Made by a program: the position numbers and the translations under genes. 64,000 nucleotides of DNA from Microbacteriaceae bacterium. GTDB taxonomy: Bacteria; Actinomycetota; Actinomycetes; Actinomycetales; Microbacteriaceae. Location: assembly GCA_025352325.1 (NCBI GenBank), contig JANXTR010000028.1, forward strand, positions 1 through 64,000. Reading direction: 5' to 3'. Positions 12,197 to 22,968 of the stretch are shown here, in pieces. The notes under the pieces were generated by a model, which worked only from the letters and a program-made list of their open reading frames with translations, was not told where the DNA came from and did no database searches. Each line of letters opens with the position of its first letter. Positions within the stretch are counted from its first letter, which is position 1.

Positions 12197-12257
12197 GTCG
12201 GCGCTGGCGTCGCGGCGAAGGTCAGAAATGGCCTTCGCTCCGAGCCCCAGCGCGCTA
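12197..12257. repeat. REP-like 61-bp hairpin element, copy 1
   Basis: A central stem GCGAAGGTCA-GAAA-TGGCCTTCGC (one wobble pair) sits inside an outer stem GCGCTGG/CCAGCGC. The same 61-bp element recurs at 32347-32407 with 55 of 61 bases identical. Both copies end in CGCGCTA, whose last three bases are the stop codon (TAG) of the adjoining minus-strand gene. It lies between convergent genes and may act as a two-way terminator. Confidence 0.85.
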
Positions 12258-13085
12258 CGCGGCGACGGTCTCGAGCGACGGCTCGACATCGAATTCGGGG
12301 ATGCCTCGGGCGTCGAGCGAGGTCTCGACGATCGTGAGGCCCTCCATGCCCGGGAGCTTCGCGATGTGCGAGTCGACGTCGCGGATGAGCTTGCGCCCCT
12401 CTGAGCCGCCGAACAGGTCGCTCATGACGTGCTTGACCTCGTCCTCGGAGCTGATCGTCGACCCGACCGGGCCCCAGAACTTGCGCAGCGCGAAGCGGGC
12501 GATGACCTGGGCCTTCTTGCTGGCCATGAGCCGCTCGCGGGCCTGCGAGGCGTAGAAGGCAACGTGCTTCGTCTCTTGAGCCGCGATCCGCTTCAGCAGC
12601 TCGGCGAGAACCGGATGGCCCTCCTTCTTCGCCATGCGCAGGTAGGCGGCGTTGGCCGACCACTCGTTGGCGGCGCCCCACGCCATGTGCACGGCGACGA
12701 AGTCGTGACCAACGAGTCCGCTGAGCAGGGACTGCTTGATCGGGTCGAGACGGTCCTTCCAGCCCAGCTTCACGCGGGTGGCCTTCAGCTCGTCGAAGTC
12801 GACCGCGATGCCGTGTTTACCGAGGACGGCGGCGAGAGCCTCACCGTGCCAGAACTCCTCACGGTTCCACATCGTCATGAAGGCGCCGATCTCGGGCTCC
12901 TTGTGTGAGGGGGTGGTGAGCAGATCGCGGAGGTAGCAGACGGTGTGATATTCCACATCGCACATATAACGAAGTGTGCGCAGCGTCGAGGCCGGCAGCG
13001 GCTGACGATCGAACTCGTCGAAGTCGAGATCTCCCCAGGCGACGGCGCTGGAGTTCGTCGTGTACTTGTCGATGTCGAATGCCAT
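12255..13085 (-). CDS. Ferritin-like diiron protein, possible lipid desaturase or oxygenase
   Basis: A 276-residue helical protein with diiron-type ligand motifs: Glu45 (CDVEYHT), E77-F-W-H80 in EEFWHGEAL, a Glu in ANEWSANAAY and E171-T-K-H174 in ETKHVAFY. This pairing of two ExxH motifs is that of the ferritin-like family, which includes acyl-ACP desaturases and aldehyde-deformylating oxygenases. There is no membrane segment. The start at 13085 follows GAAGGACTGACC. It is the last gene of a minus-strand operon, 10 bases after the acyl reductase/HAD gene, and has a diverged paralogue at the operon head. In this context it is a candidate for oxidation of an ether lipid or fatty aldehyde. The exact reaction is inference. 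Confidence 0.8.
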   Translation of the reverse strand: MAFDIDKYTTNSSAVAWGDLDFDEFDRQPLPASTLRTLRYMCDVEYHTVCYLRDLLTTPSHKEPEIGAFMTMWNREEFWHGEALAAVLGKHGIAVDFDELKATRVKLGWKDRLDPIKQSLLSGLVGHDFVAVHMAWGAANEWSANAAYLRMAKKEGHPVLAELLKRIAAQETKHVAFYASQARERLMASKKAQVIARFALRKFWGPVGSTISSEDEVKHVMSDLFGGSEGRKLIRDVDSHIAKLPGMEGLTIVETSLDARGIPEFDVEPSLETVAA

Positions 13086-13095
13086 GGTCAGTCCT

Positions 13096-15420
13096 TCAGT
13101 TCGCGTGGCCGGATGCGCGATCGGCGTGGAGAGCTTTCGCCTCAATCACATCACGCTTCGGTGAATGATTGCCGCGTTTCCAGTCGTCGATCTTCCATCC
13201 TCTTCGTTGCGCTTCCCGTGCGAGTTGGGTGTCGGGATTGACGGCATGGGGGTTTCCCAGCAACTCGAGCCAGACAAGGTCGGCGTGGCTGTCCCCGTAG
13301 CCGTAGGACACCGCTAGATCGAGCCCATGCTCCTCGGCGTATCGACGCACCCAGGCGGCACGTGCTTCGTCGACGAGCGGCGGCTTCGCGAGGTAGCCGG
13401 TGAGCACGCCGTCCGTCTCGTGCATGTGGCCGCCGACGACCTCGTCGAAGAGCCCGGCGAGCGGCTCGGCCAGCGTCTCGATCGAGCCGGTGACGAGCAC
13501 GGTGCGATGGCCGGCATCCCGATGGGCCTGGATCGCCTGGATCGCGGCGTGGCTTGTGTGCCGGTACATCTGGTCGGCGAAGCCGCCCTGCACGATCTTC
13601 TCGAGGCGCGCGACAGGCATGCCCTCGTAGCGCCGCAGGAACGACCGGATGAACTCGCCACGATCCCGACGCTCGGCGCGCAGGTAACCGCGGAGCGATC
13701 CGAGGATGGACAGCACCTCGGCCACCCAGGCCGCCTTGCGCACGCCCGAGGAACGCACCCACAGGTACTGCTGCACGATGTTGGAGTCGACGACCGTGCC
13801 CTCGAGGTCGAAGACCGCCAGCACGTTGGATCCGGGCACCAGCGTGTCCGACGGTGGTGCGGCGGCGGCCTCGGCAGCCTTCTTCCGCGCGCGCTTGGCC
13901 GAGAACTCGGCGGTCAGGGCGATGACGGCGGGGAAATGCACGTTGAGCATGTAGTCCCCCCAGTCGATCGCGGGGATGTCGAAGCCGAACTCTGCGCGCT
14001 TGGCGGCGGGGAGGGCGTCGTGCAGGGCGCGCAGGTTGCGGTCGTCGAAGATGATCTCGGTCTGCACGTAGACGAGGTAGAGCTGGTTGAAGTTGCGCAG
14101 CGTCTTCAGGTCGGCGATGTTGCGCAGCATCTGGTTGTGCCAGTGGCGCACGCGCTCGGTGTCCGGTAGACGGCCGAGCACCTTCTCGGCGGTGTTGGCC
14201 AGTCGCTCCTGGCGGCGCACCCCGGTGTCGATCTTGTTGATGACCGGGAACGACCAGGTGGGAACAGCGAGATCCGCGCCATGCTTGTCCTTCATGGGGT
14301 GCTCGAGGAAGAACTTGTTCACGTAGGCAAACATCTGGTGGAACGGCAGCGGGTTCGAGGCGCCGGAGGCCACGTGGTAGTACTTCGGCTCGTTCTTCAG
14401 GGCCGGGTTGGCGGCCGCGGCCAGGATCGCGTTGACGACGTAGTCGACCGGGATGACATCGAGGATCGAGTCCGGCAGGCCCGGGAACTCGGGCAGGAGA
14501 CCGCGGCCGTAGGCGATGATCAGCGGATCAGCGACCTTGAATCCGTCGATCCAGCCGGGGAAGGGATGCTTCAGCGCGCTCTCGATGATCGCGGGCCGGA
14601 CGATCGACAGCCGGTGGCCGTTCTCACCCCACAGCTCTTCGGCTGCACGCTCGGAGAAGGCCTTGGTGAGCGTGTAGACGTCGGTCCAGCCGAGGGACTG
14701 CGCGCGGGTGCGCCCGGCGTCGACGAGCTCGGCGGTGACCCAGGCGATCCGCGCCTCCTCGCTCGCCTTGGCGACCGCCTGCGGGCCCTCCTTGCCGTGC
14801 TTCGCGCGGGCGGCATCCATGAACGAGCGGAGCTGATCCGATTCGCGCGACAGCATCTCGACGCGATCGCGCGCGGCACGGGCGGCGGCGTACTCGGTGC
14901 GCCAGTCGACCTCATGGGTGAGTCGGGCCTCGGGCGCGACGCCCTTGCGCAGGCCGCCGACGTAGCAGGTGGAGACGTGCACGACCCGGGGGTCGCCGCC
15001 GGACTCGAGCAGCCGCTCGTAGAGGTTGATCGCGCCGTTGACGTTGGTGTCGAACGCCTCGTCGATCGGCGGGTCGAAGCTGACGACCGATGCCGAGTGG
15101 ATCGCGATGTCGAGATCCTTCGGGAGCGGCGGGATGGATCCCATCGCGCCCTCGACGATCCGCACGCGCTCTTTTGCGGCCTCCGCGACGGCCGTGTCGC
15201 CGATCTTGTCGCGCCACGACTGGAACACTGGCTTGGCAAGCAGCTCGGCGAGGCGCGCCGCCGGGTCTTCCCCGGCCTTGGTGCGGACCAGGATCGAGAT
15301 GGTGGTCTCGGGGTGCGCCGAGAGAAGTCGCTCGAGCACGGCCTGCCCGACGAAGCCCGTAGCCCCGGTCAGGAAGACGTGCGCCCGGCCGAGATCGGTC
15401 GTCGCTCGCTTCTGTGTCAC
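13096..15420 (-). CDS. Fatty acyl reductase fused to a HAD-IB hydrolase domain
   Basis: A 774-residue two-domain protein. Residues 1-500 are an extended SDR of the alcohol-forming fatty acyl-CoA reductase type: TGATGFVG at 18-25 binds NADPH, YTLTK near 249-253 gives the catalytic Tyr and Lys, and a C-terminal FAR-like segment contains FDIPAIDWGDY. Residues 530-765 are a HAD-IB domain with VLVTGS and GDSHAD motifs, but motif I reads FDLEGT, so the second Asp of DxD is Glu. The GTG at 15420 overlaps the upstream stop by four bases; the longer frame is a shadow. It should reduce activated acyl chains to fatty alcohol for the divergent alkyl-DHAP synthase. The HAD substrate is unknown. Confidence 0.85.
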   Translation of the reverse strand: MTQKRATTDLGRAHVFLTGATGFVGQAVLERLLSAHPETTISILVRTKAGEDPAARLAELLAKPVFQSWRDKIGDTAVAEAAKERVRIVEGAMGSIPPLPKDLDIAIHSASVVSFDPPIDEAFDTNVNGAINLYERLLESGGDPRVVHVSTCYVGGLRKGVAPEARLTHEVDWRTEYAAARAARDRVEMLSRESDQLRSFMDAARAKHGKEGPQAVAKASEEARIAWVTAELVDAGRTRAQSLGWTDVYTLTKAFSERAAEELWGENGHRLSIVRPAIIESALKHPFPGWIDGFKVADPLIIAYGRGLLPEFPGLPDSILDVIPVDYVVNAILAAAANPALKNEPKYYHVASGASNPLPFHQMFAYVNKFFLEHPMKDKHGADLAVPTWSFPVINKIDTGVRRQERLANTAEKVLGRLPDTERVRHWHNQMLRNIADLKTLRNFNQLYLVYVQTEIIFDDRNLRALHDALPAAKRAEFGFDIPAIDWGDYMLNVHFPAVIALTAEFSAKRARKKAAEAAAAPPSDTLVPGSNVLAVFDLEGTVVDSNIVQQYLWVRSSGVRKAAWVAEVLSILGSLRGYLRAERRDRGEFIRSFLRRYEGMPVARLEKIVQGGFADQMYRHTSHAAIQAIQAHRDAGHRTVLVTGSIETLAEPLAGLFDEVVGGHMHETDGVLTGYLAKPPLVDEARAAWVRRYAEEHGLDLAVSYGYGDSHADLVWLELLGNPHAVNPDTQLAREAQRRGWKIDDWKRGNHSPKRDVIEAKALHADRASGHAN

Positions 15421-16256
15421 GGCATGAGTCTCGCAGAAATGGTCGGGGCAACGGGTGCGAGTCCGGGAAGCGCGGCGATCAGGCCCTGGATGCGGCGCAC
15501 CTCGGCCCGCCCATTCTCGTTGCCGAACACGATCGCGTCGAAGAAGGTGCGGTCCTCGTCGGAGTGCTCGACGGCTCCGACCGGCCAGACCATGTTCTTC
15601 AGCTCGCGCGTGGCCAGCTTGCGAGCCTTGGTGGAGGCGGCGAGGCGACGGCCGGCCTCCTCGGCGAGGAAGCGGATGTGACGGTCCTTGATCCCGTTGA
15701 CCATGTCGACGACCGAGTGCAGGCCGGTCGCGAGCTCGCCGAGTCGGCGGTATGTCGCTTGGGTGATCCATTCGTCGACGAGGCCCGTGGTGACGTGGGC
15801 GGCGACGATCTGCGGGCCGTCGATGTTGCCCTGGATGGCGCGGCGCACCGGTCCGCGACGCTCCGGGCGCTCCATCACCACGTGGCGCAGGCCGCCCGCC
15901 GGAGCCGAGGAGTGCAGGTCGTCGCCGGTGGCCTCGAGCACGGCGTCGAGCGCATCGGCGATCCAGAACTTCTCGAACGCCCAGGTGGTGAGGAACGCGG
16001 TGACGCGGGCGTCCTTGTGGGTCGCGGTGACGAGGAGGTTCCGCATGCGATGCATGGTGGAGCGCTCGAGGTCGCGCAGCAGACGCAGCAGGCGGATCGC
16101 GTCGGTGCCCAGCCCGGACGCGGTGATCGCCTCGAGGTCGAGCTGGCCGCGGTGGCTGCCCTGCGCGGTGCGGGCGAAGTCGCGGACGTCGAACACGCCG
16201 TCTTCGAGCGATCGCCCGTCGGTGAGGTGGTCGGACGCGGCACTGCTCGGAGTCAT
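15417..16256 (-). CDS. Ferritin-like paralogue lacking several diiron ligands
   Basis: A 279-residue protein clearly related to the ferritin-like protein at 12255-13085: WNREEFWHGEAL there aligns with WAFEKFWIADAL here, and ETKHVAFY with KDRHIRFL. The alignment places Lys, Ile and Lys at three ligand positions (Glu77, His80 and Glu171 of the paralogue), while the first-helix Glu, the DEW Glu and one His remain. It therefore probably cannot hold a diiron centre and may be an inactive partner or a lipid-binding subunit. It is first in the minus-strand operon, and its stop overlaps the GTG of the acyl reductase gene. The start ATG at 16256 faces the divergent SDR gene across 77 bases. Confidence 0.8.
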   Translation of the reverse strand: MTPSSAASDHLTDGRSLEDGVFDVRDFARTAQGSHRGQLDLEAITASGLGTDAIRLLRLLRDLERSTMHRMRNLLVTATHKDARVTAFLTTWAFEKFWIADALDAVLEATGDDLHSSAPAGGLRHVVMERPERRGPVRRAIQGNIDGPQIVAAHVTTGLVDEWITQATYRRLGELATGLHSVVDMVNGIKDRHIRFLAEEAGRRLAASTKARKLATRELKNMVWPVGAVEHSDEDRTFFDAIVFGNENGRAEVRRIQGLIAALPGLAPVAPTISARLMP

Positions 16257-16333
16257 CGGATGAGGCCCTTCCAGGATGGGGCGAAGCTGTCCGCGGCGGG
16301 AACGGCGCTCAGTTGCACCGTATCGTAAGGCAT

Positions 16334-17176
16334 ATGGGAACTGCTCTGGTCACCGGGGGCACCTCCGGCATCGGCGCCGAGTTCGCCCGCCAGTTGGCTG
16401 CCCGCGGACACGACATCGTGCTCGTGGCCCGCGACACCGGTCGTCTCGAGGCGATGGCCGCCGAGCTGCGCAGCCGTGGGCGTGCGGGCGGAGCGACGAC
16501 GGCGACCGCGACGGAGTCCACGACGAAGGCCACGGTCGAGATCCTCGTGGCCGACCTCGCCGACCCGGGCGACACGGATCGCGTGGCGGCACGACTGGCA
16601 GACCCGCTGCATCCGATCGACTGGTTCATCAACAACGCGGGTTTCCGCGTCTCGAGCCGCCTCACCACCCCGGATATCGCGGAGCACGATCGTGCGTTCG
16701 CCGTCATGGTGCGCGCTGTGCTGGTGCTGGGCGCCGCGGCCGCCGCGGCCATGCGCGACCGGGGCGCGGGCCGGATCGTGAACGTGGCGAGCATCAACGG
16801 ACAGCTCACACTGAGCAACTACTCGGCGATCAAGGCTTGGGTGCGCGTCTACAGCGAGTCGCTCTCGAACGAGCTGAGCGGAAGCGGCGTGACGGCCACC
16901 GCTCTCATGCCCGGCTGGGTACGTACGGAGTTCCATCAGCGCGCCGGAGCTACGAAGGGCGAGAAGGGGCGCGGCGGTATTCCGAACTTTTTGTGGCTCG
17001 AGCCCGAACTCCTCGTACGCGAATGTCTGCGCGACGTGGAAAAAAATCGGGTGATCTCCATACCGACTATTCGGTACCAACTGCTTTCCTGGTTGCTCAA
17101 GCATCTGCCCGACAGCACGGTGCGCGCCGTCTCGCGCAGGATTAGCCTGAGACGGAGCACCGCGGCCAGCAACTGA
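16334..17176 (+). CDS. Short-chain dehydrogenase, possible alkyl/acyl-DHAP reductase
   Basis: Classical SDR of 280 residues: TGGTSGIG near the N-terminus for NAD(P)H, NNAG, an active-site Ser in VASING, and Y163-x3-K167 in YSAIK. The C-terminal 40 residues are hydrophobic and basic (LLSWLLKHLP) and may attach to the membrane. ATG at 16334 has AAGG five bases upstream; the TTG at 16313 is less likely. It heads a plus-strand operon with an acyltransferase and an alkyl-DHAP synthase, divergent from the acyl reductase operon. That context suggests it reduces the ketone of alkyl-DHAP, but SDR family alone does not fix the substrate. Confidence 0.85.
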   Translation: MGTALVTGGTSGIGAEFARQLAARGHDIVLVARDTGRLEAMAAELRSRGRAGGATTATATESTTKATVEILVADLADPGDTDRVAARLADPLHPIDWFINNAGFRVSSRLTTPDIAEHDRAFAVMVRAVLVLGAAAAAAMRDRGAGRIVNVASINGQLTLSNYSAIKAWVRVYSESLSNELSGSGVTATALMPGWVRTEFHQRAGATKGEKGRGGIPNFLWLEPELLVRECLRDVEKNRVISIPTIRYQLLSWLLKHLPDSTVRAVSRRISLRRSTAASN

Positions 17177-17222
17177 CCGGGATCTCCGCACCACCGCAGT
17201 ATCGAAGTCAGGAAGGAAGCGC

Positions 17223-17939
17223 ATGCCCGCAGAGTCGCGCAATCGCTTCACCTCGCGATCCCAGGCGGCGGCCCGGTTTGTCGCCCAGCGCGGCATCCTC
17301 AAGGGTGTCGTCTGGGGCATGGAGCACGTCACCATCGTTGACGTGGAGAACCTGAAAGGCGTCACGCGCCCCTTCGTGGCCATCGCCAATCACACGAGCC
17401 ACCTGGATGCCCCGCTCATCATGGGCGCCCTGCCCCGGCCCCTCGCCCGTTACCTGGCCGCCGGCGCGGCGGGCGACTACTTCTTCGACGTCTGGTGGCG
17501 GCGCGGTTTGACCGCGCTGTTCTTCAACGCCTTCCCGGTCGATCGCAGCGGGAAGAACCCACGCAACATCAACGCGAAGATGCTGCTGCAGCACGATGTC
17601 CCGGTGCTTGTGTTCCCCGAGGGCACCCGGTCGAAGGACGGCACGATGGGCCACTTCAAGTCGGGTGGCGCCGCGCTCGCGTCCGCGACCGGCGTGCCGA
17701 TCTTGCCGATCGCGATCATCGGGGCCCACGAGGCCCACCCGCGCGGCTCCAAGTGGCCGAAGTCCGGCCGTCCGCTCGGAATCGTATTCGCGCCGCCGAT
17801 GCGCGCGCTCGAGGGTGAGAACCCGACCGAGTTCATGGCGCGCGTGCGGGCCGTCATCGCTGATCTGCTCGAACAGCATTCCGCCCGTATCCTCGGCACC
17901 ACGTCGCTGGGGACGAACTCAGAAGGAGACGCATCATGA
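17223..17939 (+). CDS. 1-acylglycerol-3-phosphate acyltransferase, PlsC family
   Basis: Glycerolipid acyltransferase of 238 residues. The catalytic HxxxxD box is HTSHLD at residues 57-62 and the phosphate-binding box FPEGTRS starts near 132. There is only one weakly hydrophobic region, so it is probably a peripheral membrane protein. The ATG at 17223 follows AGGAAG. Its stop overlaps the ATG of the alkyl-DHAP synthase gene (ATGA), which argues for a shared pathway. In ether-lipid synthesis it could acylate DHAP before alkyl exchange, or 1-alkyl-glycerol-3-phosphate at sn-2. General phospholipid synthesis is the alternative. Confidence 0.92.
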   Translation: MPAESRNRFTSRSQAAARFVAQRGILKGVVWGMEHVTIVDVENLKGVTRPFVAIANHTSHLDAPLIMGALPRPLARYLAAGAAGDYFFDVWWRRGLTALFFNAFPVDRSGKNPRNINAKMLLQHDVPVLVFPEGTRSKDGTMGHFKSGGAALASATGVPILPIAIIGAHEAHPRGSKWPKSGRPLGIVFAPPMRALEGENPTEFMARVRAVIADLLEQHSARILGTTSLGTNSEGDAS

Positions 17940-19645
17940 CCGATGTTCAACACATGAAGTGGTGGGGATGGGGCGTCGAAGGCGTCGGCTTCCATTGGGA
18001 AGACAAGCCCGGCTTTGCGCCATTCGTCGACTACGCCGTCGGCCTCGACCTGCGAGCCGCTCCCGTCATCAGCAAGCCCGACTTCGACAAGCTGACGGTT
18101 GCCGACTCGCTCGCGTCGTCCGCGTTCGTCGCTTCGCTGGCATCCATCGTCGGTGAGGCATATGTCTCCATCGACAAGATGGAGCGGGTCGTCCACACCT
18201 ACGGCAAGAGCATCCGGGACCTGATCCGCGTGCGAGCCAATCTGATCGAGCGCTCCCCCGACGTCGTCGTCTACCCGGCCGACGAGGTCGAGACGCAGCG
18301 CATCGTGGATGCCGCCGTCGCCGCCGATGTCGTCATCATCCCGTTCGGCGGCGGCAGCAACATCGCCAGCAGCCTGGAGCCGCGCTCCGACGAGACGCGG
18401 GTCGTGCTCTCCATCGACATGGGCCGGATGCGCGAGCTCCTGTCGATCGATGAGGAGTCCGGCCTCGCGGTCATCCAGGCCGGCGCGCTCGGCCCCGACC
18501 TCGAGGAGCAGCTCAACGGGAGGGGCTGGACCCTCGGCCACTTCCCTGACTCGTTCACGCACTCCAGCCTCGGTGGATGGATCGCGACGCGCTCCTCAGG
18601 CATGCAATCCGACAAGTACGGCGACATCGCCGACATCGTGCGCGGGCTGCACGTGGTGCGACCCAGCTCTCCGGGGCGCAGCGGCATCCTGGTGATCCGT
18701 CCGATCCCGAGCTCGTCGACCGGGCCGAGTGTCCGCGAAATGATCGTTGGCAGCGAGGGCCGTCTCGGCATCATCACCGAGGCGACTGTGCAGGTGCACC
18801 GCCAGCCGGCCAAGCGCGACGTCTACGCGTATTTCTTTCCCAACTGGGAGGCCGGAATCGCGGCAATGCAGGAGATCGCCGAGAGCGACGCGACGCCGTC
18901 CATCACGCGCGTCTCGGATGCTCGCGAAACCGGTTTCTCACTGGCGACCAGCAAGGAGAGCCATGGGCTCTCCAAGTTCCTCTCGGGCACCGTGCTCCCG
19001 TTCCTGATGCGCCGCAAGGGCTGGAATCTCGACGACATCTGCCTCTCGTTCATCGGGTACGAGGGTGGCGAGGCGCACGCGAAGCTTCAGAAGAAGCTCG
19101 TCGAACGTGTCGTCAAGAAGCACGGTGGCATGGGTGTCGGGAGCGGCCCGGGCGTGCTCTACGACCAGAAGAAGTTCGACACGCCGTACCTGCGCGACTT
19201 CCTGCTGGACCGGGGTGCGGCGGGTGACGTGTCCGAATCCGCCATGCCGTGGTCGAAGGTCAACCAGCTGCACGATGCTGTGCGCGTCGCGGCCGACAAG
19301 GCATTTGACGAGATCGGCATCAAGGGCTGGATCATGTCGCATGTTTCGCACTCGTACCACTCGGGTGCCTGCCTGTACTTCACCTTCTCGTTCGTCTTCG
19401 GAGACGATCCGATCGGCGAGTACAATGTCGTGAAGAGCGCCATCCAGCAGGCCTTCATCGACAACGGCGGATCGCTCTCGCACCACCACGGTGTCGGGCT
19501 CGAGCACGCGCCGTGGCTCGAACAGGACATCTCGCCGGAGGGTGTCGCGGTCATGCGCGGCCTGTTCGCCTCGGCCGACCCGGGCGAGAACTTCAACCCG
19601 CGCAAGATCGTGGCCGATGTGAAGGCGCCCGCGAAGGTCAGTTGA
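17936..19645 (+). CDS. Alkyldihydroxyacetonephosphate synthase-like FAD enzyme
   Basis: FAD-dependent enzyme of 569 residues that should replace the acyl chain of acyl-DHAP with a fatty alcohol, forming the ether bond. The PCMH-type FAD domain shows PFGGGSN near 135-141, and DSFTHSSLGGW...SSGMQSDKYGDI from about 204 matches the pattern of AGPS enzymes. The decisive mark is the triple-histidine LSHHHGVG near residues 514-521, which is characteristic of AGPS and not of D-lactate or glycolate oxidases of the same superfamily. A Tyr-rich stretch (ACLYFTF) precedes it. ATG at 17936 overlaps the acyltransferase stop. The fatty alcohol would come from the divergent reductase gene. No peroxisomal or signal sequence is present. 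Confidence 0.88.
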   Translation: MTDVQHMKWWGWGVEGVGFHWEDKPGFAPFVDYAVGLDLRAAPVISKPDFDKLTVADSLASSAFVASLASIVGEAYVSIDKMERVVHTYGKSIRDLIRVRANLIERSPDVVVYPADEVETQRIVDAAVAADVVIIPFGGGSNIASSLEPRSDETRVVLSIDMGRMRELLSIDEESGLAVIQAGALGPDLEEQLNGRGWTLGHFPDSFTHSSLGGWIATRSSGMQSDKYGDIADIVRGLHVVRPSSPGRSGILVIRPIPSSSTGPSVREMIVGSEGRLGIITEATVQVHRQPAKRDVYAYFFPNWEAGIAAMQEIAESDATPSITRVSDARETGFSLATSKESHGLSKFLSGTVLPFLMRRKGWNLDDICLSFIGYEGGEAHAKLQKKLVERVVKKHGGMGVGSGPGVLYDQKKFDTPYLRDFLLDRGAAGDVSESAMPWSKVNQLHDAVRVAADKAFDEIGIKGWIMSHVSHSYHSGACLYFTFSFVFGDDPIGEYNVVKSAIQQAFIDNGGSLSHHHGVGLEHAPWLEQDISPEGVAVMRGLFASADPGENFNPRKIVADVKAPAKVS

Positions 19646-19723
19646 GCAAACGGTCGGACGTCCGGGCGATGTGAGACGGATGCGGTGACGGAGCCGCATC
19701 CGAACTCGCGTACCTTTGAAGGG

Positions 19724-20641
19724 ATGTCAGCCTTCACCGTCTCCTCCGAGGTCGCCTCTGCGCTCGCCGCCGGCCGACCCGTCGTCGCGCTCGAGTCAAC
19801 GATCATTTCCCACGGCCTTCCCCGCCCCCGCAACCATGCGGCCGCGCTCGAGTTCGAGGCGCTGCTGCGCGACCGCGGCGTGACGCCGGCGACGGTCGCC
19901 GTGCTCGACGGCGTGCCGCAGATCGGGCTCGACGCCGAGGGCGTCCGCCGGATCGCCGAGGAGGATCTCGCGAAGGCCAGCGTCCGCGACCTCCCGATCC
20001 TGGCCGCACGCGGCGCCTCCGGCGCGACCACGGTTGCGGCCACCGCGCACCTCGCCGCGCTCGCCGGAGTCCGCGTCTTTGCGACCGGCGGCCTGGGCGG
20101 CGTGCACCGCGGCGCCTCGCAGACCTTCGACGAATCCGCCGATCTGCCCACGCTCGCCGTGACCCCGATTACGGTTGTCAGCGCCGGCGTCAAGAGCGTG
20201 CTCGACATCGCCGCGACCCTGGAGCGCCTCGAGACGCTGAGCGTGCCGGTCGTCGGCTACCGCACGACCCAGTTCCCGGCGTTCTGGCTGCGCGAATCCG
20301 GTCACCAGCTGGACTGGTCGGTGGAGTCCGCCGAGGAGGTCGCCCGCATCATGTCGGCCCGCGACGTGCTCGGCGGTCGTGAGGGAATCATCGTCGCCAA
20401 CCCGATCCCGCTCGAGCAGCAGTGGGACCCGCTCGAGCACGATCGCGTGCTCGCCACAGCCTTCGAGGCCGCCGAAAAGGCGGGGGTGCATGGCAAGGCC
20501 GTGACCCCGTTCCTGCTCGGCTTTATCGTGGAGGCCTCGGGAGGTCGCAGCCTCGAGGTCAACCTCGACCTGGCTCGCAACAACGTCCGCGTCGCCGCGG
20601 ACATCGCGACCGCCTGGTCGGAACTCCGGCTCTCGGCGTGA
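19724..20641 (+). CDS. psuG: Pseudouridine-5'-phosphate glycosidase
   Basis: Cytoplasmic enzyme of 305 residues that splits pseudouridine 5'-phosphate into uracil and ribose 5-phosphate. Family features include VVALESTIISHGLPRP at the N-terminus, GASGATTVAAT, the FATGGLGGVHRG loop, VVSAGVKSVLDI and the YRTTQFPAFW segment. The ATG at 19724 follows GAAGGG; the longer frame from 19685 lacks a binding site. Its stop overlaps the GTG of a PfkB kinase gene, giving the usual glycosidase/kinase pair for pseudouridine salvage. The uracil released could feed the upp gene 5 kb downstream. Confidence 0.95.
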   Translation: MSAFTVSSEVASALAAGRPVVALESTIISHGLPRPRNHAAALEFEALLRDRGVTPATVAVLDGVPQIGLDAEGVRRIAEEDLAKASVRDLPILAARGASGATTVAATAHLAALAGVRVFATGGLGGVHRGASQTFDESADLPTLAVTPITVVSAGVKSVLDIAATLERLETLSVPVVGYRTTQFPAFWLRESGHQLDWSVESAEEVARIMSARDVLGGREGIIVANPIPLEQQWDPLEHDRVLATAFEAAEKAGVHGKAVTPFLLGFIVEASGGRSLEVNLDLARNNVRVAADIATAWSELRLSA

Positions 20642-21543
20642 GCGAGCTCCTCGTGGATCCCGCGCGTCGTGTCGTCGTGTTCGGCGACATCGTCAACGAT
20701 GTGGTCGTCGTGCCGAAGACCGGGATCCGGGCGGACACCGACACCACGTCCACCATTCGACCGCGGCCCGGGGGTTCGGCGGCCAACACCGCGGCCTGGC
20801 TCGGCTCGCTCGGCACTCGAACCGACTTCATCGGAAGGGTCGGCCTCGCCGACATCGAGTACCACATCGGGGAGCTGCGCAAGCAGAACGTCGAGCCGCA
20901 CCTCGGCATCGCCACCGGGCTCCCCACCAGCACGATCGTGATCATCGTCGAGGGCGAGCGCCGCACGATGTTCACCGAGCGCGGAGCGAACCGGGCGCTG
21001 TCGTCGAAGGATGTGACCGACGAACTACTCGCCGGAGCCACCGTGCTGCACCTGACCGGGTACTCGCTGCTCGACGGAACGCGTGTTCCTGGCGTGCGCG
21101 AACTCATCGACAGGGCCCACGCGGCCGGCGTGACCGTATCGCTCAACCCGGGCTCCGCGGGGTTCATCGGCGACTTCGGGCCGACCGAGTTCCTGGCCGG
21201 GATCGTGGGGGCCGACATCCTGTTCGCCAACGTCCAGGAGGCGGCGCTGCTCTGCACCGAGACGACCCCGGAACGCATGGCGCAGGTGCTTTCCGCTCGT
21301 CACGGCCTCGCCGTCATCACGCAGGGCGCGGACAGCGTCTTCGTCTCCGAGGGCGGGAACAAGCCGATCAGCGTGCCGGTGCCGACCGTCCGGCTCGTCG
21401 ACCCGACCGGCGCGGGCGACGCGATGGCGGCCGGGTTCCTGAACTCCTGGATCGTGGAGCACGACATGCTCAAGGCCGCTCAGGCGGGCATCCTCGTCGC
21501 GGCGCGTGCCGTGATGCTGATGGGCGGCCGGCCGGCCATCTGA
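20638..21543 (+). CDS. PfkB family kinase, probable pseudouridine kinase
   Basis: Ribokinase-family sugar kinase of 301 residues. The N-terminal PfkB signature GGSAANTAAWLGSLG and the C-terminal DPTGAGDAMAAG, with the catalytic Asp, are both intact. GTG at 20638 overlaps the psuG stop by four bases, so the proteins are made together and the natural substrate is most likely pseudouridine, phosphorylated to feed PsuG. Other nucleosides or sugars cannot be excluded from the kinase fold alone. Confidence 0.88.
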   Translation: MSELLVDPARRVVVFGDIVNDVVVVPKTGIRADTDTTSTIRPRPGGSAANTAAWLGSLGTRTDFIGRVGLADIEYHIGELRKQNVEPHLGIATGLPTSTIVIIVEGERRTMFTERGANRALSSKDVTDELLAGATVLHLTGYSLLDGTRVPGVRELIDRAHAAGVTVSLNPGSAGFIGDFGPTEFLAGIVGADILFANVQEAALLCTETTPERMAQVLSARHGLAVITQGADSVFVSEGGNKPISVPVPTVRLVDPTGAGDAMAAGFLNSWIVEHDMLKAAQAGILVAARAVMLMGGRPAI

Positions 21544-21558
21544 CTCGGCTGCCGTTGG

Positions 21559-22968
21559 TCATTGCTTCGAGGCTTTGACGGCCTCGTAGGCGGCCAGCGC
21601 CTCGCGTCGTGACTCGGCGAGGTCGACGATCGGCGCGGGATACTCGGGGCTGAGTCGTTCGGGCACCCAGCGGTCCAGGTACTCGCCGGCCGGATCGAAC
21701 TTCGCCGCCTGCAGTTCGGGATTGAAGACGCGGAAGTAGGGCGCGGCATCCGCCCCGCTGCCCGCCACCCACTGCCAGTTTGCCGGGTTGCTGGCCTCGT
21801 CGGCGTCGACCAGGGTGTCCCAGAACCAGCGCTCACCGACCCGCCAGTCGATCAGCAGATTCTTGACCAGCAGGCTGGCAGCGACCATCCTCACGCGGTT
21901 GTGCATCACGCCGGTCGTCCACAGCTCACGCATGCCGGCATCGACGAGTGGGATGCCGGTGCGCCCCTGCTGCCAGGCCGCGAGATCCTCGGGGGTGGGC
22001 TGATCCCACGGGAACGCGTCGAACGCGGGGCGGAAGTTCTTCGTGGCGAGCTCGGGGGAGTGGAAGAGGATATTCCAGTTGAACTCCCGCCAGCCCACCT
22101 CGCTGAGGAACTTGGGCGCGTCCTTCCGCGCAGCCGCTGACAGCTCGCCGTGTTGGACGCGGTGCCAGATCTGCACCGGGCTCAACTCGCCGAAGCGCAG
22201 GTGCGGGCTCAGGCGCGAGGTGGCGTCGACGGCGGGTTCGTCGCGCCGGTGATAGTCGGCGAGGTGCTCGGTCACGAAGCGCTCCAGGCGATGATGAGCG
22301 GAGGCCTCCCCCGGCGTCCAGGACTCGCGCAGCCCACCTGCCCAGTCCGGCCGAGTCGGCAGCAGCCGCCAGTCGTCGAGATCGTCGCTCTCGAGGCGCT
22401 GCGCATGCCCCGGGATTCCGCGGGGAGCCGTTACCAGCTCGCGGACGGGCCGCTCCTGCGCCGCACGCCAGAACGGCGTGAACACCCGGTAGGGATTGCC
22501 CTCGGCCGTGGTCACCGTCCACGGCTCCACGAGCAGGTTGGCGGCGAAGCTCTCGACGGTGATCCCGCCGCCTGCGGGGCCGGTCTTGCGCAGCGAGGCC
22601 TTGAGGCGAGCGTCCACTTCGCGGCTGGCGCCGTAGCGGCGGTTCCAGAACACGGCGTCGGCCTCGGTCTCGCGCACGAGTCTCGGCAGTTCGGTCTCGG
22701 CGGCTCCACGGCGCAGCAGCAGTCGGCCGCCGCGCTTCTCGAGCTCCTCGCCCAGCGCGGAGAGGCTGCCATGCAGCCACCAGCGCGCCGCCCCGCCGAG
22801 CGGCCGGATGCCGGGGCTCACCTCGTCGAGCAGGTACAGCACGACGACCGCGCCGCCGGCCGCCGCGGCGCGTTCCACGCCGGCCCGGAGCGCCGGGTTG
22901 TCGGCCACGCGCAGATCGTCGCGCAACCAAACGATGCTCGAAGCTGCGGTCACGCCCTGGCTCGTCAT
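21559..22968 (-). CDS. Deoxyribodipyrimidine photolyase
   Basis: Light-dependent DNA repair flavoprotein of 469 residues that reverses cyclobutane pyrimidine dimers. The N-terminal antenna domain begins SIVWLRDDLRVADNPAL. The FAD domain includes the WREFNWNIL region, the VDAGMRELWTTGVMHNRVRM helix and NWQWVAGSGADAAPYFRVFNP near the C-terminus, all typical of class I CPD photolyases. The ATG at 22968 overlaps the stop of a MarR-family gene (ATGA), so the two are co-transcribed. Which antenna cofactor it uses is not readable. Confidence 0.94.
   Translation of the reverse strand: MTSQGVTAASSIVWLRDDLRVADNPALRAGVERAAAAGGAVVVLYLLDEVSPGIRPLGGAARWWLHGSLSALGEELEKRGGRLLLRRGAAETELPRLVRETEADAVFWNRRYGASREVDARLKASLRKTGPAGGGITVESFAANLLVEPWTVTTAEGNPYRVFTPFWRAAQERPVRELVTAPRGIPGHAQRLESDDLDDWRLLPTRPDWAGGLRESWTPGEASAHHRLERFVTEHLADYHRRDEPAVDATSRLSPHLRFGELSPVQIWHRVQHGELSAAARKDAPKFLSEVGWREFNWNILFHSPELATKNFRPAFDAFPWDQPTPEDLAAWQQGRTGIPLVDAGMRELWTTGVMHNRVRMVAASLLVKNLLIDWRVGERWFWDTLVDADEASNPANWQWVAGSGADAAPYFRVFNPELQAAKFDPAGEYLDRWVPERLSPEYPAPIVDLAESRREALAAYEAVKASKQ

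Follow-up and report, generated by a model that had tools for sequence, protein, structure and literature searches.

Can a bacterium of the Microbacteriaceae make ether lipids, and from them plasmalogens, in the presence of oxygen, and if so, which enzyme would introduce the vinyl-ether bond? The question is raised by six genes at positions 12255-19645 of the window, by which we mean the whole 64,000-nucleotide stretch of DNA that was analyzed. The minus strand carries ferB, FAR-HAD, and ferA; the plus strand carries SDR, PlsC, and AGPS.

12255..13085, minus strand: FerB, 276 aa, soluble diiron-type protein; candidate catalytic subunit of a vinyl-ether desaturase
13096..15420, minus strand: FAR-HAD fusion, 774 aa; fatty acyl reductase with a HAD phosphatase-like domain
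15417..16256, minus strand: FerA, 279 aa, FerB-like predicted fold with a degenerate metal site; candidate non-catalytic partner
16257..16333, no strand: divergent intergenic region, 77 bases; putative two-way promoter
16334..17176, plus strand: SDR, 280 aa; candidate acyl/alkyl-DHAP reductase, assigned by position
17223..17939, plus strand: PlsC-type acyltransferase, 238 aa, with NHTSHLD and FPEGTRS; candidate DHAP acyltransferase, by position
17936..19645, plus strand: AGPS (alkyl-DHAP synthase), 569 aa, with SLSHHHGVG

A sequence-only reading of this DNA had named these genes and their motifs, including HTSHLD, FPEGTRS, and SHHHGVG, and all were present. The same reading described two divergent operons joined by four-base overlaps. 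The divergence was borne out, but the overlaps occur at only two of the four within-operon junctions (FerA/FAR, 15417-15420, and PlsC/AGPS, 17936-17939); FAR and FerB are separated by a 10-base gap, and SDR and PlsC are separated by a 46-base gap. No inverted repeat of at least 8 bases was found between the operons (16190-16345 searched), and no ferredoxin or reductase gene was seen among the six cluster genes.

The evidence for the ether-lipid part of our reading, which rests on a bacterial AGPS, is strong. The window protein scored 395 bits against solved ether-lipid synthases and 80 bits against D-lactate dehydrogenase, with matches to Dictyostelium ADPS (E 4e-117), guinea-pig ADPS (E 3.6e-83), and D-lactate dehydrogenase (E 1.5e-21), and it contains FAD_binding_4 (E 4.9e-31) and FAD-oxidase_C (E 1.4e-36) domains. 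The aligned equivalents of the catalytic residues, R325 (18908-18910), R420 (19193-19195), and Y481 (19376-19378), are all kept, as is the HHH motif at residues 516-518 (19481-19489). The catalytic residues were taken from Dictyostelium AGPS, and guinea-pig AGPS residue numbers were also used in the alignment and tree work. In a tree of 37 rows, the window AGPS grouped with two eukaryotic AGPS (support 95/92) and 22 other actinobacterial AGPS-like rows fell apart from this group; the program warned that the two eukaryotic rows have long branches. Clustering with lactate or glycolate oxidases, which had been named as the outcome that would refute the assignment, was therefore not observed, and such an identity was ruled out by the match scores together with the tree grouping. 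In Dictyostelium AGPS, the importance of the catalytic Arg, Arg, and Tyr was shown by mutagenesis (PMC3509576). These sequence comparisons are strong evidence that the protein is an AGPS, from which formation of alkyl-DHAP is inferred.

The alcohol-forming acyl reductase with a FAR-type C-terminal segment was likewise recovered, with NAD_binding_4 at residues 17-332 and a Sterile segment at residues 439-494 (E 1.5e-8; 35.1 bits, 0.3 below the Pfam cut-off of 35.4), and the protein matched the fatty acyl-CoA reductase 7eoz (E 5e-48). A HAD domain that was absent from the earlier reading is fused behind the Sterile segment (residues 535-718, approximately 13267-13818, E 2.8e-32). A domain scan of FAR gave no ACS, ACP, or acyltransferase match. 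The matches of PlsC and SDR were generic.

We examined the recurrence of the locus in 80 named loci, the best of 443 matches from one scan. The six genes were together in 73 of these and in the same divergent order in 71. Among the seven loci that lack the full set, three are cut off by a contig end and another three belong to genomes in which ferAB lies at a different place. Because it recurs in 73 of these best 80, the grouping is more than chance. Across 120 genomes of the family, a high-scoring AGPS and ferA/ferB were found together in 31, AGPS only in 1, and ferAB only in 5, one of them at a contig edge (Fisher 2e-22, although the genomes are not independent). An adjacent ferA-ferB pair without AGPS at E<=1e-60 was present in four family genomes (G025, G102, G057, and G079), and G385 carries ferAB with only a divergent AGPS. 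The FerB proteins of four of these five genomes (L114, L116, L117, and L158) nest beside those of Frigoribacterium and Agreia, so the FerAB pair can persist in genomes that lack this AGPS. FerB was not found in Phytoactinopolyspora halophila or in the 85%-complete genome G101, both of which carry the core. AGPS-profile matches were observed in 51 of 296 phylum genomes; 47 of the 51 carriers lacked FerB at E<=1e-20, and 16 of 20 FerB-profile carriers lacked AGPS at E<=1e-60. Distant FerB relatives (36-46%) stand alone. Three neighbors of stand-alone FerAB were scanned (lysine-decarboxylase-like, fumarylacetoacetate-hydrolase-like, and EAL/GGDEF proteins) and the rest viewed by eye, and they were uninformative about FerAB function.

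Dimethylacetals (DMAs) are the methanolysis product of plasmalogens, and the sequence-only reading had cited them as reported in some aerobic Microbacteriaceae such as Subtercola and Frigoribacterium. For Subtercola this was borne out: in PMC5945732, i-16:0 DMA at 17.0% and a-15:0 DMA at 3.2% are reported for S. vilae DB165, and DMAs are also reported for S. lobariae, S. boreus, and S. frigoramans. Among the named genomes, the cluster is present in DB165 itself, in S. lobariae, and, for S. boreus, in three other strains. For Frigoribacterium only indirect data were found, in the form of a large "C14:0 2 OH" peak; a "C14:0 2 OH" peak in Kineococcus was shown by GC-MS to be a dimethylacetal. These three genera were what a survey of the open-access literature yielded. 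In view of the locus, the "C14:0 2-OH" given in descriptions of some Microbacteriaceae may be a plasmalogen marker under the wrong label. Agreia carries the full cluster and was reported to have little DMA, at most 4% (PMC5945732). Together with the AGPS scores and catalytic residues, the Subtercola DMAs support the earlier claim that the cluster makes alkyl, and possibly alkenyl, glycerolipids. In the absence of lipid data for the window organism, we conclude that the six genes very likely allow ether lipids, and probably plasmalogens, to be made in these aerobic soil bacteria.

The model of FerB was compared with known structures. It aligned with castor stearoyl-ACP desaturase at Z 18.3 over 240 residues (3.6 A) and with Mycobacterium tuberculosis DesA2 at Z 16.3, and Foldseek matched it to the soluble acyl-ACP desaturase fold (E 4.4e-4). 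Further matches were to R2lox and ribonucleotide-reductase R2, both at Z about 15, and to 6d9f, a Kitasatospora protein titled with aldehyde-deformylating activity (Z 14.8). The R2lox and R2 matches mean that the reaction cannot be read from the fold alone. FA_desaturase_2 reached 21.8 bits, below the cut-off of 22.7, the rubrerythrin cut-off was passed, and the FerB profile found a designed helix bundle (2.4e-7) followed by DesA2 (0.0027) among PDB sequences. The putative ligand codons are E45 (12951-12953), E77 (12855-12857), H80 (12846-12848), E141 (12663-12665), E171 (12573-12575), and H174 (12564-12566), and the six diiron ligands and two ExxH motifs were kept in all 80 FerB sequences. 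The paralogue FerA has the same predicted fold, yet the window FerA has K, I, and K at the positions of FerB E77, H80, and E171, and FerA sequences mostly have lysine at two ligand positions. Fold comparison of FerA gave Z 17.3 for both the desaturase and R2lox and hence no choice between them, and its profile matched no PDB sequence up to E 1. These models suggest that FerB may be the catalytic subunit and FerA a non-catalytic pseudo-enzyme partner; their pairing and activity are inferred.

Known vinyl-ether enzymes were sought in the window genome, whose completeness is 96.5%. PF10520 (Lipid_desat), which we take to be the CarF/PEDS1 family, had no match there or in any of the 120 family genomes; the model does give hits in 12 of 296 phylum genomes. 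PF09989, presumably a domain of PlsA, was not in the window genome and occurred in one of the 120 family genomes, which has neither AGPS nor ferAB, and in 4 of 14 control genomes. Membrane fatty-acid desaturases (PF00487) were not found in the window genome either, leaving CarF, the PlsA domain, and a membrane desaturase unmatched there as the missing enzyme. The desaturase-like fold, the six invariant ligands, and this lack of matched alternatives strengthen the earlier suggestion that the diiron protein is a vinyl-ether enzyme candidate, which remains an inference.

We propose that FAR would make a fatty alcohol by reducing a branched acyl thioester, PlsC would acylate dihydroxyacetone phosphate, AGPS would exchange the acyl chain of acyl-DHAP for the fatty alcohol, and SDR would reduce the ketone, giving 1-O-alkyl-glycerol-3-phosphate for completion by normal phospholipid synthesis. 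FerB, with FerA and a cellular electron donor, would then take the part that the membrane enzyme CarF/PEDS1 plays elsewhere and use O2 to desaturate the alkyl chain between 1' and 2'. Every reaction in this scheme is inferred, as are its substrate and electron donor and the assignment of FerAB as a new soluble O2-dependent vinyl-ether desaturase. We consider it moderately probable that the locus encodes an ether-lipid pathway of the eukaryotic type that runs aerobically and ends in plasmalogens, with FerAB replacing CarF/PEDS1. Counting against the FerAB step are the four family genomes with FerAB and no recognizable AGPS, and further points against are the core found without FerB, the stand-alone distant FerB, the generic PlsC and SDR matches, the rubrerythrin cut-off passed while FA_desaturase_2 was missed, the phylum-level AGPS/FerB mismatch, the lack of a ferredoxin or reductase among the six genes, and the low DMA of Agreia.

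Several of these points would also fit a core that makes alkyl ether lipids, with FerAB modifying acyl or alkyl chains in some other way, for example by hydroxylating them or desaturating them internally, and an unseen enzyme supplying the vinyl ethers. We regard this as unlikely, although it cannot be dismissed given FerAB without recognizable AGPS in four family genomes, the core without FerB in P. halophila and G101, the distant FerB relatives that stand alone, and the additional fold matches of FerB to R2lox and R2. The C18:1 summed feature (MIDI) of 52.1% in S. lobariae and 40.4% in S. frigoramans (PMC9287328) makes an acyl desaturase possible there. The Subtercola acids listed in PMC5945732 are saturated except for trace a-15:1, but this counts little against the alternative because the two sources disagree. 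The alternative is opposed by the window genome's lack of any match to CarF, the PlsA domain, or membrane desaturases, and by three named genomes in which ferAB accompany the core although they are not linked to it.

The AGPS-like flavoprotein could instead be another VAO-family enzyme, not an ether synthase, giving the locus a different lipid role. AGPS-profile matches are spread over 51 of 296 phylum genomes, and we know of no proven ether lipids in several of the phylum groups concerned. In Myxococcus xanthus, little changed when the gene for AGPS was disrupted (PMC9131029). Nevertheless, the protein is closest to solved AGPS and keeps the catalytic residues, genes for FAR, an acyltransferase, and a reductase adjoin it, and cluster carriers contain dimethylacetals (PMC5945732), which together make this alternative improbable. 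A hydrocarbon pathway, in which FerB would deformylate a FAR-derived aldehyde as aldehyde-deformylating oxygenases do, could be based on the match to 6d9f; however, that Z of 14.8 is below the 18.3 for the desaturase, FAR has a C-terminal Sterile segment, and AGPS, PlsC, and SDR would be left without a role, so we hold it very improbable.

If the plasmalogen reading is confirmed, the locus would explain the plasmalogen traces reported in related bacteria; in the open-access literature searched, these are the first gene candidates found for the DMAs of Subtercola and Kineococcus. Those published DMAs contrast with a review in which myxobacteria stand out from other aerobic bacteria in having plasmalogens (PMC9131029). 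Should FerAB prove to be the desaturase, the vinyl-ether step would have been solved a third time, via soluble diiron chemistry. The enzyme would then be a soluble iron protein, different from the membrane enzyme of animals, and purifying it should be easier than purifying that membrane enzyme. The fuller proposal is a third route to the vinyl ether in aerobic actinobacteria: a soluble heterodimer resembling acyl-ACP desaturases, with one diiron subunit and one in which lysines have replaced ligands, would desaturate AGPS-made alkyl lipids without any part for CarF/PEDS1 or PlsA/PlsR, and gene transfer would have carried it to Streptomyces and Actinoplanes. We give this proposal an even chance.

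Among known systems, M. xanthus makes plasmalogens aerobically, and its MXAN_1676-1674 and elb operons with CarF likewise combine a bacterial AGPS with FAR, an acyltransferase, and an NAD-dependent enzyme; it differs in its FAR-acyltransferase fusion, in ElbD as the main route, and in CarF making the vinyl ether (PMC9131029). In the window, FAR is fused to HAD, CarF was not found, and the ElbD-type multidomain FAR-ACS-ACP-acyltransferase arrangement is not met. The anaerobic clostridial PlsA/PlsR route yields the same product class but acts on diacyl lipids (PMC9702350), and its PF09989 was not found in the window genome. Castor stearoyl-ACP desaturase and DesA2 share with FerB the predicted fold and two ExxH diiron motifs, whereas FerB shows 13-18% identity to soluble acyl-ACP desaturases, falls just below the FA_desaturase_2 cut-off, is linked to a ligand-poor paralogue, and has an alkyl ether as its proposed substrate. 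The animal/Dictyostelium pathway (FAR1, GNPAT, AGPS, AGNPR, and PEDS1) resembles the locus in its FAR and AGPS, which are homologous by sequence, in having the two remaining steps covered by an acyltransferase and an SDR, and in the oxygen-dependent finish proposed here; the window differs in being one bacterial locus with a PlsC-type acyltransferase and in having, without a PEDS1-family match, a soluble diiron pair proposed instead.

The two divergent operons in the window hold all six cluster genes, as follows.

12255-13085, minus strand: ferB, encoding a candidate diiron vinyl-ether desaturase subunit
13096-15420, minus strand: FAR-HAD, a fatty acyl reductase fused to a HAD domain
15417-16256, minus strand: ferA, encoding a paralogue of FerB
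16334-17176, plus strand: SDR, a short-chain dehydrogenase
17223-17939, plus strand: PlsC, an acyltransferase
17936-19645, plus strand: AGPS, an alkyl-DHAP synthase

Four-base overlaps join ferA to FAR and PlsC to AGPS, with none at FAR/ferB or SDR/PlsC. Pfam searches identified FAD_binding_4 and FAD-oxidase_C domains in AGPS. The FAR protein has, besides its FAR domain, a fused HAD domain and a Sterile segment at the FAR C terminus that falls 0.3 bits short of the cut-off; its FAR half matched the solved fatty acyl-CoA reductase 7eoz (E 5e-48). The SDR and PlsC products gave short-chain dehydrogenase and acyltransferase matches; these are generic, and the place of the two proteins in the DHAP steps is inferred from gene position. 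In the HAD domain (13267-13818), the second Asp of motif I is replaced by Glu (DxEGT) in 72 of 76 FAR sequences, the remaining 4 not being matched by the search pattern; its substrate, otherwise unknown, is perhaps a lipid phosphate. Downstream of AGPS (19685-22968) lie genes that by eye resemble those for a pseudouridine-phosphate glycosidase, a PfkB-type kinase and a photolyase.

Among PDB sequences, the window AGPS was most similar to Dictyostelium ADPS (395 bits, E 4e-117); guinea-pig ADPS scored 283 bits and D-lactate dehydrogenase only 80 bits. Residues R352, Y508, and R447, important in Dictyostelium ADPS by mutagenesis (PMC3509576), align with R325, Y481, and R420 of the window protein, assuming a constant shift of three between the aligned chain index and the published numbering. 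The triple histidine is also retained, and the Tyr and first two His are missing from two other FAD-oxidase_C proteins of the window genome. In a 37-row tree, 11 cluster AGPS proteins formed a single clade (100/100) that grouped with two eukaryotic AGPS (95/92); 21 of 22 other actinobacterial AGPS-like rows formed a sister group (91/85), L177 fell outside it, and the two other FAD-oxidase_C proteins were outermost. The program warned of long branches on the eukaryotic rows, and therefore the scores and residues were weighted first.

Conservation of the locus was analyzed in the best 80 of 443 relatives from a scan of named genomes. All six genes lay within the fetched stretch at 73 of these 80 loci, and 71 shared the same divergent order; complete but rearranged sets were observed in Streptomyces NRRL WC-3626 (L046) and Phytoactinopolyspora alkaliphila (L095). 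The incomplete loci L036, L072, and L111 reached contig ends; for L111, a second contig of the genome has ferB, FAR, ferA, and SDR at its end (L183). The ferAB pair is on a separate contig in Naasia (L065) and Actinoplanes (L068), with FAR nearby in the latter, and about 7 kb from the rest in Amnibacterium kyonggiense (L109). FerB was not found in a search of the P. halophila genome (L106), the completeness of which is not known. In Subtercola lobariae, two extra genes sit between FAR and ferB (L094:1774-4037), one for another PlsC and the other for a protein that matches the N-terminal domain of lactate racemase (Lar_N); S. vilae and Labedella have a similar gap with a second PlsC match. The AGPS proteins of Streptomyces (L046) and Actinoplanes (L068) nest among Microbacteriaceae rows in the AGPS tree, a placement suggesting that the gene may have been transferred to them. 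The cluster also occurs, with a 90% identical AGPS, in a genome titled 'Acidobacteria bacterium isolate G2_35' (L034), which is probably a mislabelled bin.

In 120 family genomes, including that of the window (2.83 Mb, 54 contigs, 96.5% complete), high-scoring AGPS (>800 bits) was detected in 32, ferA/ferB in 36, and both together in 31 (Fisher's test, 2e-22, for genomes that are related and not independent). S. vilae belongs to this family: family genome G090 and the genome behind the S. vilae locus L077 gave identical coordinates. The ferAB count includes G113, where ferA alone was detected because the contig stops there, and excludes weak FerA-only matches in G045 (51 bits) and G116 (43 bits). 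One genome that is 85% complete (G101) had AGPS without ferAB, a second search also giving no match, and three further genomes had divergent AGPS-like proteins (~300 bits) and no ferAB. Conversely, G107 had ferAB without AGPS on a contig that stops within PlsC. In G025, G102, G057, and G079, ferA adjoins ferB, AGPS was not recognised, and the other four cluster genes were absent from the 20 kb examined around ferAB. These four genomes count against the inferred role of FerAB in the vinyl-ether step. In a tree that left out G102, FerB of the other three and of G385 nested with Frigoribacterium and Agreia FerB, a pattern that looks like loss of the core with retention of FerAB. Alkyl lipids would then come from elsewhere in these organisms, or else FerAB acts more widely. 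Beyond the family, FerB and AGPS are mostly found apart: in a phylum draw of 296 genomes, the FerB profile matched 20 and the AGPS profile 51, with an overlap of only 4.

FerB gave a weak Pfam rubrerythrin match (23.4 bits; cut-off, 22.8) and an FA_desaturase_2 score just below the cut-off (21.8 versus 22.7); FerA had no Pfam match up to E 0.001. The FerB model (pLDDT 86, pTM 0.84) best matched castor stearoyl-ACP desaturase (Z 18.3, 240 residues, 3.6 A), followed by M. tuberculosis DesA2 (16.3), R2lox (15.5), and ribonucleotide reductase R2 (~15), and Foldseek returned only two chains at E 0.001, both acyl-ACP desaturases. For the FerA model (pLDDT 90, pTM 0.88), desaturase and R2lox tied at 17.3. 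Thus, the reaction of FerB is not fixed by its fold. FerB residues E45, E77, H80, E141, E171, and H174 are present in 80/80 FerB proteins and 11/11 distant relatives. In 82 FerA proteins, K or R occupies the position of E77 in 81 and that of E171 in 78, and none has His at the H80 position. FerA (16), FerB (16), and the distant relatives (11) formed three separate well-supported groups in a 43-row tree. We interpret FerB as the iron-containing enzyme and FerA as its partner, now without a metal site; that the two proteins pair is inferred from constant linkage. The FerB relatives L148-L157 and L159 (36-46% identity, six putative diiron ligands) are solitary in other actinobacterial families; three of the distant relatives were scanned and had no Pfam match.

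Other vinyl-ether enzymes were also sought. PF10520, which we take to be the CarF/PEDS1 family, was absent from the window genome and from all 120 family genomes; the same search matched 12/296 phylum genomes. PF09989, presumably a PlsA domain, matched 1/120 family genomes, one without AGPS or ferAB matches. The inclusion of S. vilae in both family searches is inferred. No PF00487 membrane desaturase was found in the window genome by a search that gave matches in 5/14 controls.

The window organism is without lipid data, and the phenotype comes from other strains, as reported in the available portions of the sources. Dimethylacetals, the methanolysis products of plasmalogens, are listed for S. 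vilae DB165 (iso-16:0, 17.0%; anteiso-15:0, 3.2%; anteiso-17:0, 1.9%), with several also in S. frigoramans, S. boreus, and S. lobariae and low levels (<=4%) in Agreia (PMC5945732). The cluster is carried by S. vilae DB165 (L077), S. lobariae (L094), Agreia pratensis (L110), and S. boreus L098, L100, and L101, three strains whose labels do not identify them as the analysed type strain. In Kineococcus rubinsiae, GC-MS identified the MIDI 'C14:0 2OH' peak as anteiso-15:0 dimethylacetal (2.9%), and the MIDI system is said to assign peaks to dimethylacetals only when its anaerobe database is used (PMC7472656). MIDI '2OH-C14:0' reached 15.6% in S. vilae (PMC9287328) and 17.0% in Frigoribacterium faeni (PMC7033078), a cluster carrier (L086, L091). 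We infer that, within the family, the peak often marks plasmalogens. However, the S. lobariae table has both 14:0 2-OH (10.3%) and dimethylacetals, the latter from cells grown at another temperature according to its note (PMC5945732). The same source states that dimethylacetals are absent from Frondihabitans and that 14:0 2-OH is major; because the Kineococcus peak was a dimethylacetal (PMC7472656), this component may, by analogy, be a misnamed one. Studies also conflict on unsaturated acids, the S. lobariae C18:1 feature being 52.1% in one (PMC9287328) and absent in the part seen of another (PMC5945732). A term search of the main text of the S. vilae genome paper (PMC6518244) found no mention of ether, plasmalogen, or acetal.

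In the open-access literature, we found no published description of the six-gene locus, no gene candidates for the dimethylacetals of aerobic actinobacteria, and no report of a soluble diiron vinyl-ether desaturase. From the parts of the sources available, the AGPS route is known in eukaryotes and, in part, M. xanthus (PMC9131029), AGPS homologues are reported in Actinobacteria from Black Sea metagenomes (PMC11868695), and plsA/plsR are reported for several actinobacterial orders (PMC9702350).
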